IMG/VR virus record: IMGVR_UViG_3300026083_000004
Location: 1 to 24,148 of that record
Strand: one strand, 5' to 3'
Source of the DNA: a virus
Length of the DNA stretch: 24,148 bases
Part shown: positions 3,985 to 20,308 of the stretch, one piece after another
Numbering within the stretch: the stretch's first letter is position 1
Layout of the letters: each line of letters opens with the position of its first letter
Notes under the pieces: generated by a model
What the model saw: only the letters and a program-made list of their open reading frames with translations
Told to the model about the DNA's origin: nothing
The model's database searches: none
Translations under genes and position numbers: made by a program

Positions 3985-6705
3985 TTAATCAAGAAATTGT
4001 TTGTATCTAGCGTTTGGGTCTTCTGTTTTACCGTCTTTAGAGTAAACCCCCCAAGCTAAATAGCCATTACCTCTTTGTGCTTGTGTTTCATCAAACACTA
4101 ATTTAGCAGCTATAGCATTAAGTACAGGATCATATAAAGCGTTGTTATTGTCTATACCTAGTTTAGGTCTTCTATCATTTCCTAACTCCATACCTTTGTA
4201 GTTAAACATATTTATTTGAAATAAACCATAAGATTCTTCTGGTTCTTCTTCTGTACCACCATAAAAAGCATTTGCTCTGTTAGCTGATTCAGCCATAGCT
4301 ATAGCTGTCATTACTTTTGCCTGTTCTTGTGTAAACCCTGCATTAATTAGTATTTTGTTTATTTGTTGTTTTGTTAAAGGTTGATCATTATCTGTTTGTA
4401 CTTTTATCTGTTGTTTTAATTCGTTTAATTCTGATTCTGGTAACATATTTTGCATTGGTAATGATTCATTTGATCTCATATCAACCATTGGCACAACCAA
4501 TTCTTGACCTGCTCTTATTAAATCTGCATTAGTTATATTGTTTGCTTCCATAAAAGCTTGTAATGGTACACCAAACTGTTCTGCTAATTCACCTAATGTG
4601 TCACCTGCTTCAACAGTGACAGTAGTTGGTGTATCGTCATCGCTAAAACCACTAGCTTCTAAATTATTTGAATCTACTAATAGTTTTAAAGGTTCATATG
4701 TTTTAGGACCGCCAAAACCAAAACCATATTCACCTGTTTGTAAAAATTTAATTATAGAATCTGCTTGTGATTTACCTGCAATATTGGTTACGTTCATTTT
4801 TTCTTTTTCTTCTATTACTTGTTCAATTAACTTATTTCTATTTTCTCTTGTTACACCTCCCATACTTGTTAGTTCTTGTATAACTCTTGATTCTATTTGA
4901 GGTAAATCATCTTTTCTCCCAATAATTTCAAAAAAACTTTTACCAGATCCACCAGGTTCATTATCTGTGTTTATTTCTTCTGTATTTGTTTCTGTCATAT
5001 TGTTAGGTCCAATTACTGTTTCCATTCCTTCTTCACTTAATATTTGTTTTATTTGGTCTATAGATAACCCAGAATCATCTGATAAAGCTTGAATTTCTTG
5101 TTCTTTTGCAACTTCTTCTTTTGTTTTTCCTAATCCAATTCTTTGTGCTTCTGCAATATAAGCATCTTTTAAAATTCTAAATTTATTCTCTTTCTCTTCA
5201 TTTGATAAACCTGTTGTGTTTTGTATCTGATCTATTACGTTTCTGGTAAATTCGTTTTCTAATTCTATTGCTTGCATACCTTTAGTATTGTCCTCAAAAG
5301 TATAACCATACTCATCATATTTACCACCTAATAATGAATTAGCTTGGTTAACTGCTTTACCAATTCGTGTGTTGTAATTAATAGGTGCAGCTTTTTTAAA
5401 ATTTTGAATTACAGAAAATGTTTTATCATAATTATTTTTATCTTCTGGTGTAGCAGTACCACCATGACTATCCCAAATTTCTTTTAATTCTTCTAAAGCT
5501 TCATCAGGTCTATTAGCGTATAAGCCTGATCCTACATCTAATTGTAGATCTTGATATCTAGAACTTCTATCTGTTTCAAATATTTCTATTGTTTCTAAAA
5601 CTTTCTTTTTTCTAAAAGGAAAGAAATCTAACAAAGCATTAGCACGTTCTACATCATTTGGGTATTTTTCAAGAATTCTTTCTATTGTTTGATCTTCAGC
5701 AGCTTTAATTTTTTCTAATTCTCTTTTATCATTTTTATCTTTTGAGTCAGCTAATGAATCTTTTAACTTCAAAAAGGTTGTTTCAAATTTAGGATGATTT
5801 TTAAATTTTGATGTACCATTTGGTCCATAATTTATGTCACCTATCATCTCTATAGCACTATCAATATCAGAAATTTTACCAGTTGTGTCATACAATCTTG
5901 TAATTGAACTTTTACCAATATCAAGTAAAGAATCAAAAAATTTTATATTTTTATCACTAGCTAAACCAAGCGTTACATTATCTTCTATATATTCATTTAC
6001 ATTGGCTAAAGCTGTTTCTTTGTCACCATCAATATAAGTTTCTAAATTATTAAATATTGTTGGTAATGCTTGGTTTTTTGTTCTTTGGTAACTAAATTCA
6101 TTAAAATTTTTAATTTGATCTTCTGTAATTTTTTCTAAAGCTAAAGCTTGTTTTGGTAAAAAATATTTATTTAAATAACTTTTTCTAATACCTTCTAATT
6201 TTTCGGTTTCATAACTTGCAGCTTCATCTAAAAAAGTTTGATACTCTGGCGATCCAACATCAAAATGACTTATTGGAATTGAAATCTCTTGACCGTTTTT
6301 TATTTGCTGTACAGTATAAGTATTATGAAAAGTTTTTATTTTTCTACTTACACTGTCACCTGCTAAAATAGCTTTTTGTTTTTCATACCCTGCTTTTGCA
6401 AGAAAACTTCCACCTATTAACTGCCTAACTGCTTCGTCACCTTCATCTTTTCTAATATTTGTTAGTGTATTTTTTAAATTTTTTTTAGATTGTTCTATAG
6501 CTATTTCCATTCCTCTTTCAAATTCTTCTTCAGCTTTATCTTCTATCTTTTGTCCAATAAATGCTTGTAGACCTGGATTTACTGCTTGCAATATTTCAGC
6601 TAATTCCTCTGCACCACTTTTAGGTTGTACAGTTACAGGTTGCACAAAAGTATCTACAGGGCTTGTAGCAGATTGAAAAGCTGTACTTTGAAAACTGTTA
6701 GTCAT
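3985..6705 (-). CDS. Internal virion protein (gp15-like) with LysM and lytic transglycosylase domains
   Basis: This is a 906-aa protein at the T7 gene 15 position. Residues 1-690 are charged, Glu/Lys/Gln/Asn-rich and probably helical. Residues about 696-742 form a LysM peptidoglycan-binding repeat (AGDTLGELAEQFGVP followed by an IRAGQELVVP end). The last ~125 residues form a lysozyme-like lytic transglycosylase domain: catalytic Glu near 806 in IAMAESA, then SYGLFQIN at 825-832, a YDP..N.IAAKL segment, and a final AWGVYS. The likely role is local cell-wall opening during DNA ejection. T7 gp15 is 747 aa and has neither domain; T7 carries its transglycosylase at the N-terminus of gp16. The start overlaps the stop of the gp14-like gene by one base, indicating translational coupling. 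Confidence 0.85.
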   Translation of the reverse strand: MTNSFQSTAFQSATSPVDTFVQPVTVQPKSGAEELAEILQAVNPGLQAFIGQKIEDKAEEEFERGMEIAIEQSKKNLKNTLTNIRKDEGDEAVRQLIGGSFLAKAGYEKQKAILAGDSVSRKIKTFHNTYTVQQIKNGQEISIPISHFDVGSPEYQTFLDEAASYETEKLEGIRKSYLNKYFLPKQALALEKITEDQIKNFNEFSYQRTKNQALPTIFNNLETYIDGDKETALANVNEYIEDNVTLGLASDKNIKFFDSLLDIGKSSITRLYDTTGKISDIDSAIEMIGDINYGPNGTSKFKNHPKFETTFLKLKDSLADSKDKNDKRELEKIKAAEDQTIERILEKYPNDVERANALLDFFPFRKKKVLETIEIFETDRSSRYQDLQLDVGSGLYANRPDEALEELKEIWDSHGGTATPEDKNNYDKTFSVIQNFKKAAPINYNTRIGKAVNQANSLLGGKYDEYGYTFEDNTKGMQAIELENEFTRNVIDQIQNTTGLSNEEKENKFRILKDAYIAEAQRIGLGKTKEEVAKEQEIQALSDDSGLSIDQIKQILSEEGMETVIGPNNMTETNTEEINTDNEPGGSGKSFFEIIGRKDDLPQIESRVIQELTSMGGVTRENRNKLIEQVIEEKEKMNVTNIAGKSQADSIIKFLQTGEYGFGFGGPKTYEPLKLLVDSNNLEASGFSDDDTPTTVTVEAGDTLGELAEQFGVPLQAFMEANNITNADLIRAGQELVVPMVDMRSNESLPMQNMLPESELNELKQQIKVQTDNDQPLTKQQINKILINAGFTQEQAKVMTAIAMAESANRANAFYGGTEEEPEESYGLFQINMFNYKGMELGNDRRPKLGIDNNNALYDPVLNAIAAKLVFDETQAQRGNGYLAWGVYSKDGKTEDPNARYKQFLD

Positions 6706-11314: not shown

Positions 11315-11986
11315 TTAAGAAGCAGCAAGTTTAATTGTTGCAGCACATTCTGGTCTTAAGATGCCATGACCTAACGCATACTTAGCAACCATTAAGGTTC
11401 CTTGATACATTATGCCATAATCTGAACCAGAGATTTCAGTTGTCATATCCATAAGTTTTACTGTACCAACAGCAGACTTGTGGAAGACAAGACCAATAGT
11501 TTTACTATCGTCACCTGAGTAAGTGTTGTTCGCACCACTTGGGTTAGAAGATACGTTACTCTGAGGTACGTTGTTACTCATCATCACAGGGATGCCAGCA
11601 ACTTGCTGTACCTTACCAGAAGCAAACGAACCATTGCCACCAGGGTTGAAGTCAACATCTACAGTTCTTGTAGCTGATTCAGCTAACTTGTAGTACTCAG
11701 CAGGTGGTAATACACAGAAGCGATCTGTTGGAGGGATGTCTCTCTCATCAAATGCTTGTGCAATATCATAGATAGCACCAGCTAGTTCATCACCAGTAAT
11801 ACCAGCAGAAGTTGTGTTACCAGCACCAGTTGGGAAACTAGATACGATACCACCTTGTCCACCTGATAATGTAGTAGATGCTCTAGAAGCATTTGCTATC
11901 ATCTTCGCTACGTTTTGATCGTACGTACGAGCCAGAGCTTTACCAAGCTCATCAGCATAAGTAGCACGAACATCATAGTGATTCTT
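11315..11986 (-). CDS. Major capsid protein, exon 2 (C-terminal 223 aa; T7 gp10-like)
   Basis: This encodes the C-terminal two thirds of a T7 gp10-type HK97-fold capsid protein. It opens KNHYDVRATYADELGKALA, aligning with T7 MNHYDVRSEYTSQLGESLA, and ends with an HKSAVGTVKL block and YALGHGILRPE, aligning with T7 HRSAVGTVKL and YAMGHGGLRPE. The frame stays open upstream only to TTG at 11989, with no ribosome-binding site, so it is unlikely to be an independent gene. Joined to exon 1 (12581-12261) by removal of the intron 12260-11987, it gives a 330-aa protein (T7 gp10A is 345 aa). A terminator follows the stop. Confidence 0.93.
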   Translation of the reverse strand, partial: KNHYDVRATYADELGKALARTYDQNVAKMIANASRASTTLSGGQGGIVSSFPTGAGNTTSAGITGDELAGAIYDIAQAFDERDIPPTDRFCVLPPAEYYKLAESATRTVDVDFNPGGNGSFASGKVQQVAGIPVMMSNNVPQSNVSSNPSGANNTYSGDDSKTIGLVFHKSAVGTVKLMDMTTEISGSDYGIMYQGTLMVAKYALGHGILRPECAATIKLAAS

Positions 11987-12260
11987 CAAGATTGTTATCC
12001 TAAAGGCTCTTTATCCTTTAGTTCTGCATCTTTGCCATTAATGCAGTTCAGACTATATCTTCACCCCCTTGTTAATACTGGTTGGGTGCAAGGCACTCGT
12101 GTCTCCGTTACTTAGTTTCCTATCGGGAGTTAGTCGTTGAACCTTCCAGTTGGTGTACTGGCTTGGCTGCTGATTGTCCTTGTTTTATGGAGGAGTTCCA
12201 GCAATTCACCTTGTTATCTATTTGTTGTTACCAACAAAAGGCTCTAATCACTTTAGAAAA
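11987..12260 (-). ncRNA. Group I self-splicing intron in the major capsid gene
   Basis: This is a 274-nt segment interrupting the capsid ORF. In minus-strand order it carries the conserved elements: P (AATTGCTGGAACTCC, 12206-12192), Q (AATCAGCAGCCAAG, 12175-12162), R (GTTCAACGACTA, 12142-12131) and S (AAGATATAGTC, 12061-12051). Pairings visible: P4 TGCTG 12203-12199 with CAGCA 12172-12168; P6 CCAGT 12161-12157 with ACTGG 12150-12146; P7 GACTA 12135-12131 with TAGTC 12055-12051; P8 CACCC 12088-12084 with GGGTG 12066-12062; P9 CTGCAT 12046-12041 with ATGCAG 12029-12024; and a 7-bp CTAAAGG/CCTTTAG hairpin 12021-12000. The upstream exon ends in U, pairing with G of GAGC (12244-12241) in P1, and the intron ends in G. 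The layout resembles subgroup IA (T4 td-like). There is no homing-endonuclease ORF. Exact splice points could shift by a few bases; the S, R and Q elements are unambiguous. Confidence 0.93.
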
Positions 12261-12581
12261 AAGCTCCTCTAAGTTACTTACGAAGGCTTGAGAAATTAGA
12301 AGATCATCAATGTTGATAATCTTTTCGTTTGCCTTGATTTGGTTCGCTCCAACGAGGGGGGTGCCTACGGTATGATACGCCGCCGTTGCAGTTCCTAATA
12401 CTGGGAACTGTGCTGACTTACCACTTGTGATAGTACGAACTGAATGAAGTTGCTCGTTGAAAATGTTATTTCTGGCAAACGCTGTTAGCACCTCTCCTGA
12501 AAATACTTTAAGGAAAAGAGCGTCAAACGCTGTACCAGTGTTATTAACCAAACCAAGGCGTGAGACTGTGGCGTTAGCCAT
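12261..12581 (-). CDS. Major capsid protein, exon 1 (N-terminal 107 aa; T7 gp10-like)
   Basis: ATG at 12581 follows a strong AAGGAG at 12594-12589, seven bases upstream. The 107 residues include FLKVFSGEVLTAFARNN and SGKSAQFPVLGTATAAYH, aligning with T7 FLKVFGGEVLTAFARTS and SGKSAQFPVLGRTQAAYL. They end at SNLEEL, just where T7 continues to MNHYDVR. Without splicing, translation reads ten intron codons (ending in AFCW) and stops at 12228, giving a 117-aa truncated product that lacks most of the capsid fold. The spliced junction is codon CTT (Leu107) followed by AAG (Lys). Confidence 0.93.
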
Positions 12582-12699: not shown

Positions 12700-12963
12700 T
12701 TATACAGACCCACAATTCCACTTTCTTAAGGCAAGGGCTTTGCGAGTTAGCTTGCCATCTTTTTTTAATGGTCCTTTTACCTTAGACATTCTGGCACAAA
12801 AAGATTTTCTTCTGCCTTTCTCTGTCTTGGTTAGACCTGTCTTTTTAGTAACAGGAGCTTGCAAGTTTCCACCTGTTGCTCGGTTGTATTTTCTACGACC
12901 AGAAGCAGTAAGACCACCTGTGGGGTCTTTATCCTTCTTGGTCATTGATACGCCCTTAGACAT
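12700..12963 (-). CDS. Small basic protein, DUF6321-like
   Basis: This is an 87-aa protein. A GGLTASGRRKYNRATGGNLQ block at 16-35, a later GRRKSFCARM motif and a C-terminal GKLTRKALALRKWNC form the pattern I associate with DUF6321, a family of small basic proteins found in marine phages and other aquatic viruses. Function is unknown. Two invariant-looking Cys (in SFCARM and KWNC) and many Lys/Arg suggest a nucleic-acid-associated or virion protein, but this is inference. It lies just before the capsid leader, and its position among structural genes points to late expression. Confidence 0.75.
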   Translation of the reverse strand: MSKGVSMTKKDKDPTGGLTASGRRKYNRATGGNLQAPVTKKTGLTKTEKGRRKSFCARMSKVKGPLKKDGKLTRKALALRKWNCGSV

Positions 12964-12995
12964 AAAAAATGTAAGCTATTTAAAATATAACACCT

Positions 12996-13250
12996 TTACG
13001 CAATCTTTAAACTATTTCTTTTTTTTCTTCTGTGTTGGTAACTAATTTTTTTTGAGCCTGTCTTTTCTCTTTTAAATCTAGATTTTTCCTTGCTACTCAT
13101 TTCTCCTGTAGTTTTTGGAGTCTTACTACTAACTCTTTTTGATGGTCTGCAAGCAGGGTAAGGTCTACCTTTTTCATCTTTACCTCTACCACAGTCTTTG
13201 CCTGTTTTGACATCAACCCATTTTTCTTTAAACCATCTAGTAAGACTCAT
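12996..13250 (-). CDS. Small basic protein, DUF5872-like
   Basis: This is an 84-aa protein. It begins MSLTRWFKEKWVDVKTGKDC and continues GRGKDEKGRPYPACRPSKRV, the Trp-Val-Asp...Cys-Gly-Arg...Tyr-Pro-x-Cys-Arg-Pro pattern that I associate with the DUF5872 family of small basic proteins in aquatic viruses. The second half is a Lys/Ser/Arg-rich tail. The two cysteines and conserved aromatic positions suggest a small folded unit with a disordered basic tail. Function is unknown. Its ATG overlaps the TGA of the preceding 50-aa gene (ATGA), so the two are translationally coupled. Confidence 0.75.
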   Translation of the reverse strand: MSLTRWFKEKWVDVKTGKDCGRGKDEKGRPYPACRPSKRVSSKTPKTTGEMSSKEKSRFKREKTGSKKISYQHRRKKRNSLKIA

Positions 13251-17007: not shown

Positions 17008-17009
17008 TT
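16968..17009 (+). terminator. Terminator-like hairpin facing the plus strand
   Basis: A perfect 11-bp inverted repeat, AAATACCAACA (16968-16978) and TGTTGGTATTT (16995-17005), with a 16-nt loop is followed on the plus strand by a run of T up to 17009. All genes run on the minus strand, where the hairpin is preceded by A residues and followed by the weaker CTTAG. It sits right after the exonuclease stop. It could stop antisense transcripts, act weakly in both directions or stabilise the 3' end of the early mRNA. Confidence 0.6.
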
Positions 17010-17739
17010 ATGGAGTCCAGAGAGACACTTCACCTGTATCAAAATCAAAGTCTCCATCTCTCAATATCCTTGCAAGCTGTGCATTAAGAACAGCATCAGC
17101 AAAATTATATTTCTTTTTTTCATAAGCTTCTACTACTTTCTCCCACATCTGTTCAAGTGTCTTAGCTTCACCTAATATCTTTTCTGCTGTTACTGGCCCT
17201 ACTTTATCTATTCCAAAGTAGTTATCTGTACTATCTCCTGTAAGAGCCTGTATCATCCAATGCCTATCAGCTTTACGTTTGGTTATAAGTTCCATGTCAT
17301 CACCTGCGAGAAGGGTACAAGGCACAGATCTCATATCCTTATCGACTGAAACTATTATCGGGTTGTCATATTTTTTTGATGTTGCAAGAATAGACATCAC
17401 ATCATCACCTTCTAAACCTGCATAACTTTCAGACGTATATCTTTCTCTTACCCCTTCAATAATTTTACGAAGACCTAAAGGTTTTCTTTTGTGTTTTCTA
17501 TTAGCTTTGTATTCTGGATATATTGTATGTCTAAATGTTGGATACTCAGTAAAGCACATAACAACATTCTTATCACCTTCAGCAATGGTTTGATAATGTG
17601 CAACTCTACCATCAACCATTTCATGCACATCTCTTTCATCTGCATGAAGTGTGTGTAAGTTACTATCCCACTGTATATCCTGTTCACAGGCACAGCATGA
17701 AGAATAGATAAGCCAATCAGCGTCAATAAGTAAAGTCAT
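17008..17739 (-). CDS. 5'-3' exonuclease (T7 gp6-like)
   Basis: This is a 243-aa protein (T7 gp6 is 300 aa). N-terminal LLIDADWLIYS gives the first metal-binding Asp residues (6, 8). A basic YKANRKHKRKP arch lies at 77-87, EGDDVMS near 110, SVDKDM (Asp133, Asp135), and GDSTDNYFGIDKVGPVTAEK at 168-187, which combines metal-binding Asp with the helix-3-turn-helix DNA-binding element of the FEN family. It removes RNA primers and degrades host DNA in T7. Its ATG shares a base with the primase-helicase stop (TAATG). In T7 the DNA polymerase gene lies between these two, but here it is absent. Confidence 0.93.
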   Translation of the reverse strand: MTLLIDADWLIYSSCCACEQDIQWDSNLHTLHADERDVHEMVDGRVAHYQTIAEGDKNVVMCFTEYPTFRHTIYPEYKANRKHKRKPLGLRKIIEGVRERYTSESYAGLEGDDVMSILATSKKYDNPIIVSVDKDMRSVPCTLLAGDDMELITKRKADRHWMIQALTGDSTDNYFGIDKVGPVTAEKILGEAKTLEQMWEKVVEAYEKKKYNFADAVLNAQLARILRDGDFDFDTGEVSLWTP

Positions 17740-19346
17740 TAGTTTCCAAAATAAGTTTCCATAGGTACTACAAGTCTTCCTGTCTTTTCGTCATACAATA
17801 ATTTATCTACTGGTCCTGTCATTCCTGTGTGTCTATTTTTCAATACTCTTAACTGTAGTTCTGCTCTTTCTGCATAGCTTTCTGATTGTTGATTTCTTTC
17901 ACAGGCAACAACCAAATCGCTCAACTGAGCTATGCTATGTGACGATCTCAAATGGTTTAAAGAAACTTTATTACCCTCCTCATGTCCTTTACCTTCTGGC
18001 CTACGCAAGTGAGAAACAATAATCAAACCTATTCCAGTAGATTCAACTACCTGCCTAAGTTTTGTACAGACTACATCCAAAGCTCTTCTCTCATCAAGAT
18101 CACTGATGCCAGAAACAACTATTGTTAGATGATCCAAGATAACAACATCTACACCTTCTGCTGTTGCAAGATACTGTATCTGTTCGACTAATCTATCTGG
18201 ATCAATAGATCCAAAGTGATCATATAAGAATAGTTTTCCTGTACCAAACAGCCTATCAAAGGATTGTCTTAGCCCTTCTGTTTCTTCTACATTATCCTCA
18301 AGATGCAGGGGTTTATTCATCTCTACACCGAGTATCCCCTGCATTGTTCTTTGTACCGATTCTTCAAGAGCTATATAACCTACGGTCAGACTATTCTTCA
18401 TAAAGTGATGTGCTAGTTCACGACATATAGTTGACTTACCTGTACCACTACCTGCTGCTATACAAAGCATCTGCTGTTTACGAAACCCTTTACAGAACTT
18501 ATCTAGTTCTGGAAAAGGAAAAGAACAGATACTGTTGCTGCCTTTCTTTGTTAGTTCTGTCCAGAGGTTAGAGGCGTTAAGGATTCCATCTGGTCTAACA
18601 GGTGTTGCTTTCCATAGGAGATCTCTAAGTTCTTCCCCTTCACCTGCGATGAGCATTTCATTAGCGTCTTTTCTAGGTAATCTACATATTGCTGCCTTAC
18701 CAGGAGGTAAGATTTTAATTGCTTTTTCGGCAGCAACCATGCCAGGCTCGTCACTGTCAAAACAAATTACTATCCGTACAAATTGAGATAACCATTTTAA
18801 ATTCGCAGCTATATATTTATTAGCCGACTGTGATCCCGAAGGCAAACTTACTACAGGGTACTTGTTATTTTGTGCTTGCGAGACTGACATACAATCAATC
18901 TCTCCTTCTGTAATAGTGACAAACATATTACCTGTATTAACTTGTCTCCATAATCTTTGACCCCATAGCTGTAGATCACCTACATCACCAAGCCAAATAA
19001 ATTTTTTATTCTGAAATCTAATATGCTGTGCGACTTGCCTACCTAATTTATCTTCATAGGTAGCAACTTGTACTGGCTGACCATTATGTTCAGATGTTCC
19101 GTAGTTAAAGAGTTCACAAGTTTCTTTTGTGAGCGCACGTTTAGGTAATGCTTTTGGTGTAACAAATTTTAGTAATGGTTTCTTCACTGATTTAACAAAA
19201 GATTTTCTGGGTTTATCTTTCTGTGGTTGCTGCGTGTAGCCACAACCGAAACAGTAACCATGACCATCATCATAGATAGCTAAGTTATCTTTGCTACCAC
19301 ACTTAGGGCAAGGTTCTTTTCTGACGTATTTACTTTTGGTTTCCAT
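17739..19346 (-). CDS. DNA primase-helicase (T7 gp4-like)
   Basis: Using ATG at 19346 the protein is 535 aa (T7 gp4A is 566). The zinc-binding primase domain has Cys13, Cys16, Cys32 and Cys35 (CPKC...CFGC). The TOPRIM domain shows EGEID at 147-151 and DSDEPG at 197-202. The RecA-type helicase has Walker A GSGTGKST at 299-306, Walker B VVILDH at 401-406, SHLRRP near 445 and LKNRHTG near 502. The frame is open to an ATG at 19409, but the extra 21 hydrophobic residues overlap endonuclease I by 80 bases and lie outside the zinc domain; ATG 19346 has AGAAG upstream and overlaps by 17 bases. It unwinds the fork and lays primers. Confidence 0.94.
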   Translation of the reverse strand: METKSKYVRKEPCPKCGSKDNLAIYDDGHGYCFGCGYTQQPQKDKPRKSFVKSVKKPLLKFVTPKALPKRALTKETCELFNYGTSEHNGQPVQVATYEDKLGRQVAQHIRFQNKKFIWLGDVGDLQLWGQRLWRQVNTGNMFVTITEGEIDCMSVSQAQNNKYPVVSLPSGSQSANKYIAANLKWLSQFVRIVICFDSDEPGMVAAEKAIKILPPGKAAICRLPRKDANEMLIAGEGEELRDLLWKATPVRPDGILNASNLWTELTKKGSNSICSFPFPELDKFCKGFRKQQMLCIAAGSGTGKSTICRELAHHFMKNSLTVGYIALEESVQRTMQGILGVEMNKPLHLEDNVEETEGLRQSFDRLFGTGKLFLYDHFGSIDPDRLVEQIQYLATAEGVDVVILDHLTIVVSGISDLDERRALDVVCTKLRQVVESTGIGLIIVSHLRRPEGKGHEEGNKVSLNHLRSSHSIAQLSDLVVACERNQQSESYAERAELQLRVLKNRHTGMTGPVDKLLYDEKTGRLVVPMETYFGN

Positions 19347-19800
19347 ACCATTCTTCTGGAATAGAGCCATGACTCCAAAGAAACCCATGCTTAGAAGCCC
19401 AAGCACCATAGGTTAAACTTCTTTTGCCACGACTCAATTTTGCTTTGCTGTTTTGAAAACAGAACCTAATATCTAGGTCGGGTCGTTGCGTCTTGATCGC
19501 AATATGTTTTCTGCGGTCTTCTTTTGAGAAGAAGCCTTTAGTTTCAATACAGATGCCGTTGTCAAGGATGAAATCAGGCTTATAAACGCAACTGATTTGG
19601 TAGCTAACATCAAGTGTTTCATAGGTGTAAGGAACTTTATTTGTTTGTAATGTAGCTGCTATTGCAGCTTCAAACTTACTTCTAAAATTCGTCTGCTCCG
19701 ACTGTTTCAAACCCTGCTTTCGCTTTGGGCTTCTCCTCTTCGATGGTTGCTTCTTCTGTTTCAAAGCCGTAGGCTTGTGCGGTTTTTGTGTATTCGACAT
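19330..19800 (-). CDS. Endonuclease I, Holliday-junction resolvase (T7 gp3-like)
   Basis: The frame from ATG 19800 gives 156 aa (T7 gp3 is 149). FRSKFEAAI carries Glu44, and YKPDFILDNGICIETKG carries Asp76, Glu86 and Lys88, matching T7 catalytic Glu20, Asp55, Glu65 and Lys67. Later SKEDRRKHIAIKTQRPDLDIR aligns with T7 DDRKKHLLIREQHPELDIR. It resolves branched DNA before packaging. The first ~40 residues overlap the ssDNA-binding gene by 119 bases, are very Lys/Arg-rich and have no ribosome-binding site before the ATG. A start at TTG 19710 (126 aa) is an alternative, so the N-terminus is uncertain while the nuclease core is secure. Confidence 0.9.
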   Translation of the reverse strand: MSNTQKPHKPTALKQKKQPSKRRSPKRKQGLKQSEQTNFRSKFEAAIAATLQTNKVPYTYETLDVSYQISCVYKPDFILDNGICIETKGFFSKEDRRKHIAIKTQRPDLDIRFCFQNSKAKLSRGKRSLTYGAWASKHGFLWSHGSIPEEWYGNQK

Positions 19801-20308
19801 GGTTGTGAATGATTGCAGCTTCTGGTTGAATAGTTACTCCGACACCGAAGCTAGGGTTTTCCCAACCTTTGCAACGCAAATTAACTTGACCAGTTGTGCC
19901 AGGTCCACATTTATTAACAGCCTCTTTTTCCTCTTCAGACATTGGTACACCATCTGATTTAAATAAAGCTGGCGGTCTGTTCTTTCTAACAGTTCCATCT
20001 GAATAAGTAACAGTAGTTTTTAATTTGCTTTTTATTTTAAAAAATGGCTTACCATCAACCTCTGTGTACTCCCATTGCATAGGTGCAAGCTTGTATTTTT
20101 TTTGAGGATTAGCAGATTTAAGTTGGGTCTTCCATCTTTCTAAATAAGCTGTTAATTGTTCTTCAATTTCTTGTGATTTTTCTGGATCAATAAGACACTC
20201 AACTTGCCAAATGCCAGCAGGGTCAAATTTTGTATCAGGTTCTACCAGCCATGCGAATTGAAATTGACACACTGGTGTCGTGATGTTCATTGGTTCTGAT
20301 TTGATCAT
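19682..20308 (-). CDS. Single-stranded DNA-binding protein (T7 gp2.5-like)
   Basis: This is a 208-aa protein (T7 gp2.5 is 232) between RNA polymerase and endonuclease I, the T7 position. The core shows CQFQFAWLVEPDTKFDPAGI, then KFDP..W..E..IDPE, KLKTTVTYSDGTVRKNRPP, and GTTGQVNLRCKGWENPSFGVGVTI, typical of phage OB-fold ssDNA-binding proteins. The C-terminus is Glu-rich and ends GADEF; T7 gp2.5 also ends in an acidic tail with terminal Phe that contacts DNA polymerase and helicase. The ATG has only an A/G-rich leader and no clear Shine-Dalgarno sequence. Confidence 0.85.
   Translation of the reverse strand: MIKSEPMNITTPVCQFQFAWLVEPDTKFDPAGIWQVECLIDPEKSQEIEEQLTAYLERWKTQLKSANPQKKYKLAPMQWEYTEVDGKPFFKIKSKLKTTVTYSDGTVRKNRPPALFKSDGVPMSEEEKEAVNKCGPGTTGQVNLRCKGWENPSFGVGVTIQPEAAIIHNHVEYTKTAQAYGFETEEATIEEEKPKAKAGFETVGADEF

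Follow-up and report, generated by a model that had tools for sequence, protein, structure and literature searches.

A small group I intron, apparently mobile, interrupts the major capsid gene of P-SCSP2-like marine podoviruses

In this work, a 24,148-base virus record (hereafter the window) was analyzed, and its major capsid gene is interrupted by a complete group I intron of 274 nt that is very probably removed by splicing, a reading based on the anatomy of the element and its comparison with relatives. The carrier is a marine T7-like podovirus resembling Prochlorococcus phage P-SCSP2. The intron is found at a single capsid site in a minority of related phages, and its patchy distribution makes horizontal homing a likely explanation.

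The interrupted capsid gene and the intron boundaries

The T7-like gene order of the window is read on the minus strand and comprises RNA polymerase, endonuclease I, primase-helicase, 5'-3' exonuclease, portal, scaffold, capsid, tube, nozzle and internal virion proteins. The exonuclease gene directly follows the helicase-primase gene (17008-19409) and no DNA polymerase gene lies there, the window being a partial genome; MPP-C cyanopodoviruses likewise have no DNA polymerase gene between these two genes (PMC9860041). Two small basic proteins of unassigned function (DUF6321, DUF5872) are encoded between the scaffold and capsid genes (12700-13250), and several small hypothetical genes occupy the same place in P-SCSP2. 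In the region 19330-20308, the reading frame of endonuclease I shares about 80 bases with that of the helicase and, as listed, about 119 bases with the upstream frame at 19682-20308. The P-SCSP2 record OM416780.1 (locus L082) contains a clear Phage_endo_I match at 5257-5622 (E 1e-38), although the describing paper reports no recognizable endonuclease gene (PMC9860041).

The major capsid gene is present in two pieces (12581-12261 and 11986-11315, minus strand), which are separated by the intron:

12261..12581, minus strand: 5' exon of the capsid gene, 107 codons (MANATV...NLEEL) with a final U; Pfam Gp10A-like, directly joined to the 3' exon in loci that have no intron
11987..12260, minus strand: group I intron, 274 nt, beginning UUUUCUAAAG and ending AACAAUCUUG with the terminal G at 11987; assigned from RF00028, the empty site and same-site homologues
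11315..11986, minus strand: 3' exon of the major capsid gene (KNHYDVR...KLAAS, stop); Pfam Gp10A-like, contiguous with the 5' exon in intronless loci

The T7-type identity of the capsid is given by PF21703, which matches across both exons: the open reading frame 12581-12228 covers positions 1-50 of its 279 positions, and the open reading frame 11989-11315 covers positions 52-279. These matches, together with the contiguity of the gene in intronless loci, bear out the earlier note, which had named a gp10-type major capsid gene as the interrupted one. Joining 12261 to 11986 puts LEEL next to KNHYDVR and restores the reading frame, the joined exons reading GAGCTTAAGAATCAC around the junction. In the isolate P-SCSP2, the capsid gene is intact, with 91% protein identity over the 3' exon.

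The only Rfam match between the capsid pieces is the group I intron model RF00028, which aligns over its full length (1-253 of 253) with 12259-12024 on the minus strand at 74.9 bits (E 1.3e-17; gathering score, 50 bits). A protein scan of viral contigs yielded 80 loci. Wherever a locus holds both sides of the site, the capsid pieces adjoin and the insert is absent, except in L066, where an insert lies at the same place as the window intron. The nearest intronless relatives, L002 and L003, align gap-free with the joined exons across 993 nt at 94.5% nucleotide identity, and the empty site in intronless relatives is GAGCTT|AAGAATCAC. L003 and L002 read ...GACGAGCTT|AAGAATCAC, and the window reads ...GAGGAGCTT[274 nt]AAGAATCAC. 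The boundaries 12260..11987 are exact because neither edge slides: the exon ends in T and the intron in G, and the intron starts with T and the 3' exon with A. An alternative placement, with the exon ending at 12258, the intron ending at G11984 and the junction LEELF-NHYDVR, was rejected, as intronless relatives read CTT AAG or CTT ATG.

The earlier note had placed a group I intron at 11987-12260, with U as the last base of the 5' exon and G as the last base of the intron. The two comparisons it had proposed, with the Rfam group I model and between intronless and intron-bearing capsid genes of related podoviruses, gave the score above the gathering value and the unambiguous empty site described here; the placement is right to the base, including U12261 and G11987. 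Its description of the intron as endonuclease-free also holds, since no open reading frame lies within the 274 nt, which leave no room for an intron-encoded homing endonuclease.

Ribozyme structure and predicted splicing

Fifteen helices were written by hand on an alignment of seven intron copies. They include all those listed previously (P4, P6, P7, P8, P9) and ten more (P1, P2, P3, P5, P6a, P7.1, P7.2, P9.0, P9.1, P10), and comprise the P3-P8 core with interleaved P7 and P3:

12240..12266, minus strand: P1, exon GGAGCUU(U) with guide AGAGCC and one bulged A; six pairs kept in every copy
12222..12237, minus strand: P2 hairpin with a GUAA loop; one U-A to C-G compensatory pair
12089..12213, minus strand: P3, 12213-12207 with 12095-12089
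12168..12203, minus strand: P4 (12203-12198 with 12173-12168) enclosing P5 (12194-12191 with 12180-12177)
12141..12167, minus strand: P6 and P6a (P6a, 12161-12157 with 12150-12146); three two-sided compensatory pairs between the window and relatives
12051..12135, minus strand: P7, the guanosine-binding helix, 12135-12131 (GACUA) with 12055-12051 (UAGUC)
12103..12129, minus strand: P7.1 (CUCC/GGAG) and P7.2 (UAG/CUA, GAAA loop), a 33-nt insertion relative to the Rfam model
12062..12088, minus strand: P8, with a compensatory change from C-G to A-U; the 261-nt copies have a loop shorter by 12 nt
12000..12048, minus strand: P9.0 (with 11989-11988), P9 (12046-12041 with 12029-12024) and P9.1 (12021-12015 with 12006-12000)
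11978..12251, minus strand: P10, guide GUGAUU (12251-12246) with 3' exon AAUCAC (11983-11978)

Across the seven copies, 99.6% of the cells of the 75 pairs can pair, and six pairs show a two-sided compensatory change (three in P6a and one each in P2, P8 and P10). When the partners were slid by 1 to 3 columns as a control, pairing fell to 30-50% and no two-sided changes remained. The pairs of P3, P4 and P7 never vary, so that the support for these helices comes from the Rfam match and not from covariation. In P10, five pairs are invariant, and the outer pair is G-C in three rows, A-U in one and mismatched in two. The splice-site wobble U12261.G12244 falls within P1, exactly at the end of the 5' exon. 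Plain minimum-energy folding gave a z-score of -3.0, a calculation in which the pseudoknotted core does not appear. Stems such as P7.1 and P7.2, lying between P7 and P3, are typical of subgroup IA, and their presence suggests that the intron may be IA-like.

From this anatomy we infer that the intron is spliced. In the late transcript, the guide sequence would pair with the exon end GGAGCUU to form P1, and a guanosine held in P7 would attack at U12261. The freed 5' exon would then attack after G11987, with P10 aligning the 3' exon, and the joining of LEEL to KNHYDVR would give the full-length capsid protein. On unspliced RNA, ribosomes would read ten intron codons and reach the in-frame stop at 12230-12228, inside P2, which by the open reading frame corresponds to a 117-residue fragment.

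If splicing did not occur, the insertion would leave the capsid as two polypeptides, each translated on its own, and an open reading frame starting from a TTG codon is indeed available for the 3' part. That TTG, however, overlaps the intron end and is preceded by no visible typical ribosome-binding site, and separate translation leaves the frame-restoring exact site, the complete ribozyme and the compensatory changes unexplained; we regard it as extremely unlikely.

The earlier note had further suggested that splicing links capsid output to GTP level or late timing. An intron kept because it gates capsid synthesis in this way, by GTP level or infection stage, would be well placed in a late gene whose expression is very high, and the ten codons that translation enters before the P2 stop make interference between splicing and translation possible. 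However, the intron is absent from close relatives with 94.5% identical capsid genes, its occurrence is scattered and rare, and the core helices account for the 274 nt with no aptamer-like extra domain. The suggestion is not supported, as most close relatives have no intron, and a regulatory role is very unlikely.

Distribution and mobility of the intron

DNA scans for the intron core identified six further viral contigs with a homologous intron, all at the same capsid site; the copies are 274 or 261 nt long and 87-100% identical. Searches for the core in other genes and in bacterial genomes gave only this capsid site or nothing. Among the relatives, at least 120 sites are intact and the intron pattern occurs in six contigs. 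Since most close relatives do not have it, the intron is an optional one, with the behavior of a mobile element. Its distribution on a tree of 109 capsid genes, in which six carriers were placed, is patchy: at least five changes of state (gains or losses) are required, all of them forced by well-supported branches.

The introns are more similar than the genes around them. Those of the window and L089 are 96% identical, compared with 56% at fourfold-degenerate exon sites; for L089 and L087, the values are 99.6% and 80%. Constraint on the ribozyme partly explains this contrast but does not readily account for intron loops that are nearly identical on different backgrounds. The 14-base target GAGCTTAAGAATCA is present in all seven intron alleles versus 31 of 172 intronless sites, which may reflect a splicing requirement rather than co-conversion. 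The upstream tract was compared for the three carriers that have close relatives without the intron (the window, L088 and L085), and the 27 nt 5' of the site, with seven differences, form the most divergent bin. Two of 29 close intronless pairs reach six differences in this bin, about as in other bins, as do 10 of 70 close intronless comparisons, which are not independent, and two of the three cases have one tract in common. The signal, weak and from a small sample, suggests co-conversion of a short upstream tract of about 25 nt of exon.

The patchy tree, the intron similarity above that of silent exon sites and the upstream exon carried along together point to horizontal homing, which we consider likely. 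The intron would spread among capsid alleles of P-SCSP2-like phages, probably through double-strand-break repair initiated by a trans-acting endonuclease or through ordinary recombination during co-infection. No match to HNH, HNH_3, GIY-YIG, LAGLIDADG_1 or Endo VII was found in the seven carrier contigs, which are incomplete, and these contigs have no open reading frame that is common to carriers and confined to them. An enzyme, if any, would thus act in trans or be encoded outside the sequenced parts. T7-type endonuclease I was rejected as the partner of the intron, since 13 of 18 records have it, carriers as well as non-carriers.

A genuine spliced intron could also have become patchy purely by recombination and loss of capsid genes, with no homing. 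The capsid genes of these phages look mosaic, recombination between them could by itself scatter the intron, and such a history fits the finding of no endonuclease in the carrier contigs. It accounts poorly for introns that are almost identical although the exons flanking them on both sides are strongly divergent within tens of bases, and for a tree that forces at least five changes, and we consider it unlikely.

Known phage introns and implications for marine podoviruses

Capsid-gene group I introns are not unprecedented, since mycobacteriophage LittleE has a probable one in its major capsid gene, with splicing demonstrated by RT-PCR and protein sequence, and the same paper cites a capsid-gene intron in lactococcal phage Tuc2009 (PMC3706429). 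As in the window, close relatives of LittleE are intronless, the 5' exon ends in U and the intron in G; the LittleE element, however, has 819 bp with a putative LAGLIDADG endonuclease and lies in an unrelated siphovirus capsid gene, whereas the window intron is ORF-free and lies in a T7-like one (PMC3706429). Cyanophage S-PM2 offers a marine parallel, its psbA group I intron being associated with the free-standing endonuclease F-CphI, a model for 'collaborative homing'; there, however, the phage is T4-like, the gene photosynthetic and the endonuclease adjacent, and none was found in carriers of the window type (PMC6083498). The T7-like cyanophage Pf-WMP3 also has a group I (IA2) intron, but in the DNA polymerase gene, encoding the HNH nickase I-PfoP3I, and in a phage of a freshwater host (PMC3428280). 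In the phage collection, the introns most similar in sequence, at about 67% identity across some 220 nt, are those of crAss-like phages (BK010471, MT774380), which differ in lying beside HNH endonuclease genes, in other genes and hosts.

The earlier note had known of no capsid-gene intron in this type of marine phage. For marine T7-like phages this stands within our literature search, which found no description and whose scope left out most subscription journals; the paper on the P-SCSP2 lineage names introns only in a reference title (PMC9860041). For capsid genes in general, LittleE provides the precedent (PMC3706429). The window intron is an endonuclease-free and apparently mobile addition to a class that is well known, and the gene it occupies is an unusual one for phages of this type.

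The ribozyme sits in the gene of the most abundant virion protein, where splicing should need very high efficiency, and its host lineage, P-SCSP2-like and MPP-C-like, consists of very common marine phages (PMC9860041). Tentatively, an endonuclease-free intron may be homing actively from one capsid allele to another in abundant marine phages of Prochlorococcus, with a putative nuclease in trans, protecting the capsid gene of its bearer and deciding which capsid allele wins in co-infection. For annotation, the finding is a warning that a capsid marker gene from a marine phage can be recorded as two broken genes. As near-identical phages exist with and without the intron, its cost and its endonuclease-free spread are directly testable.
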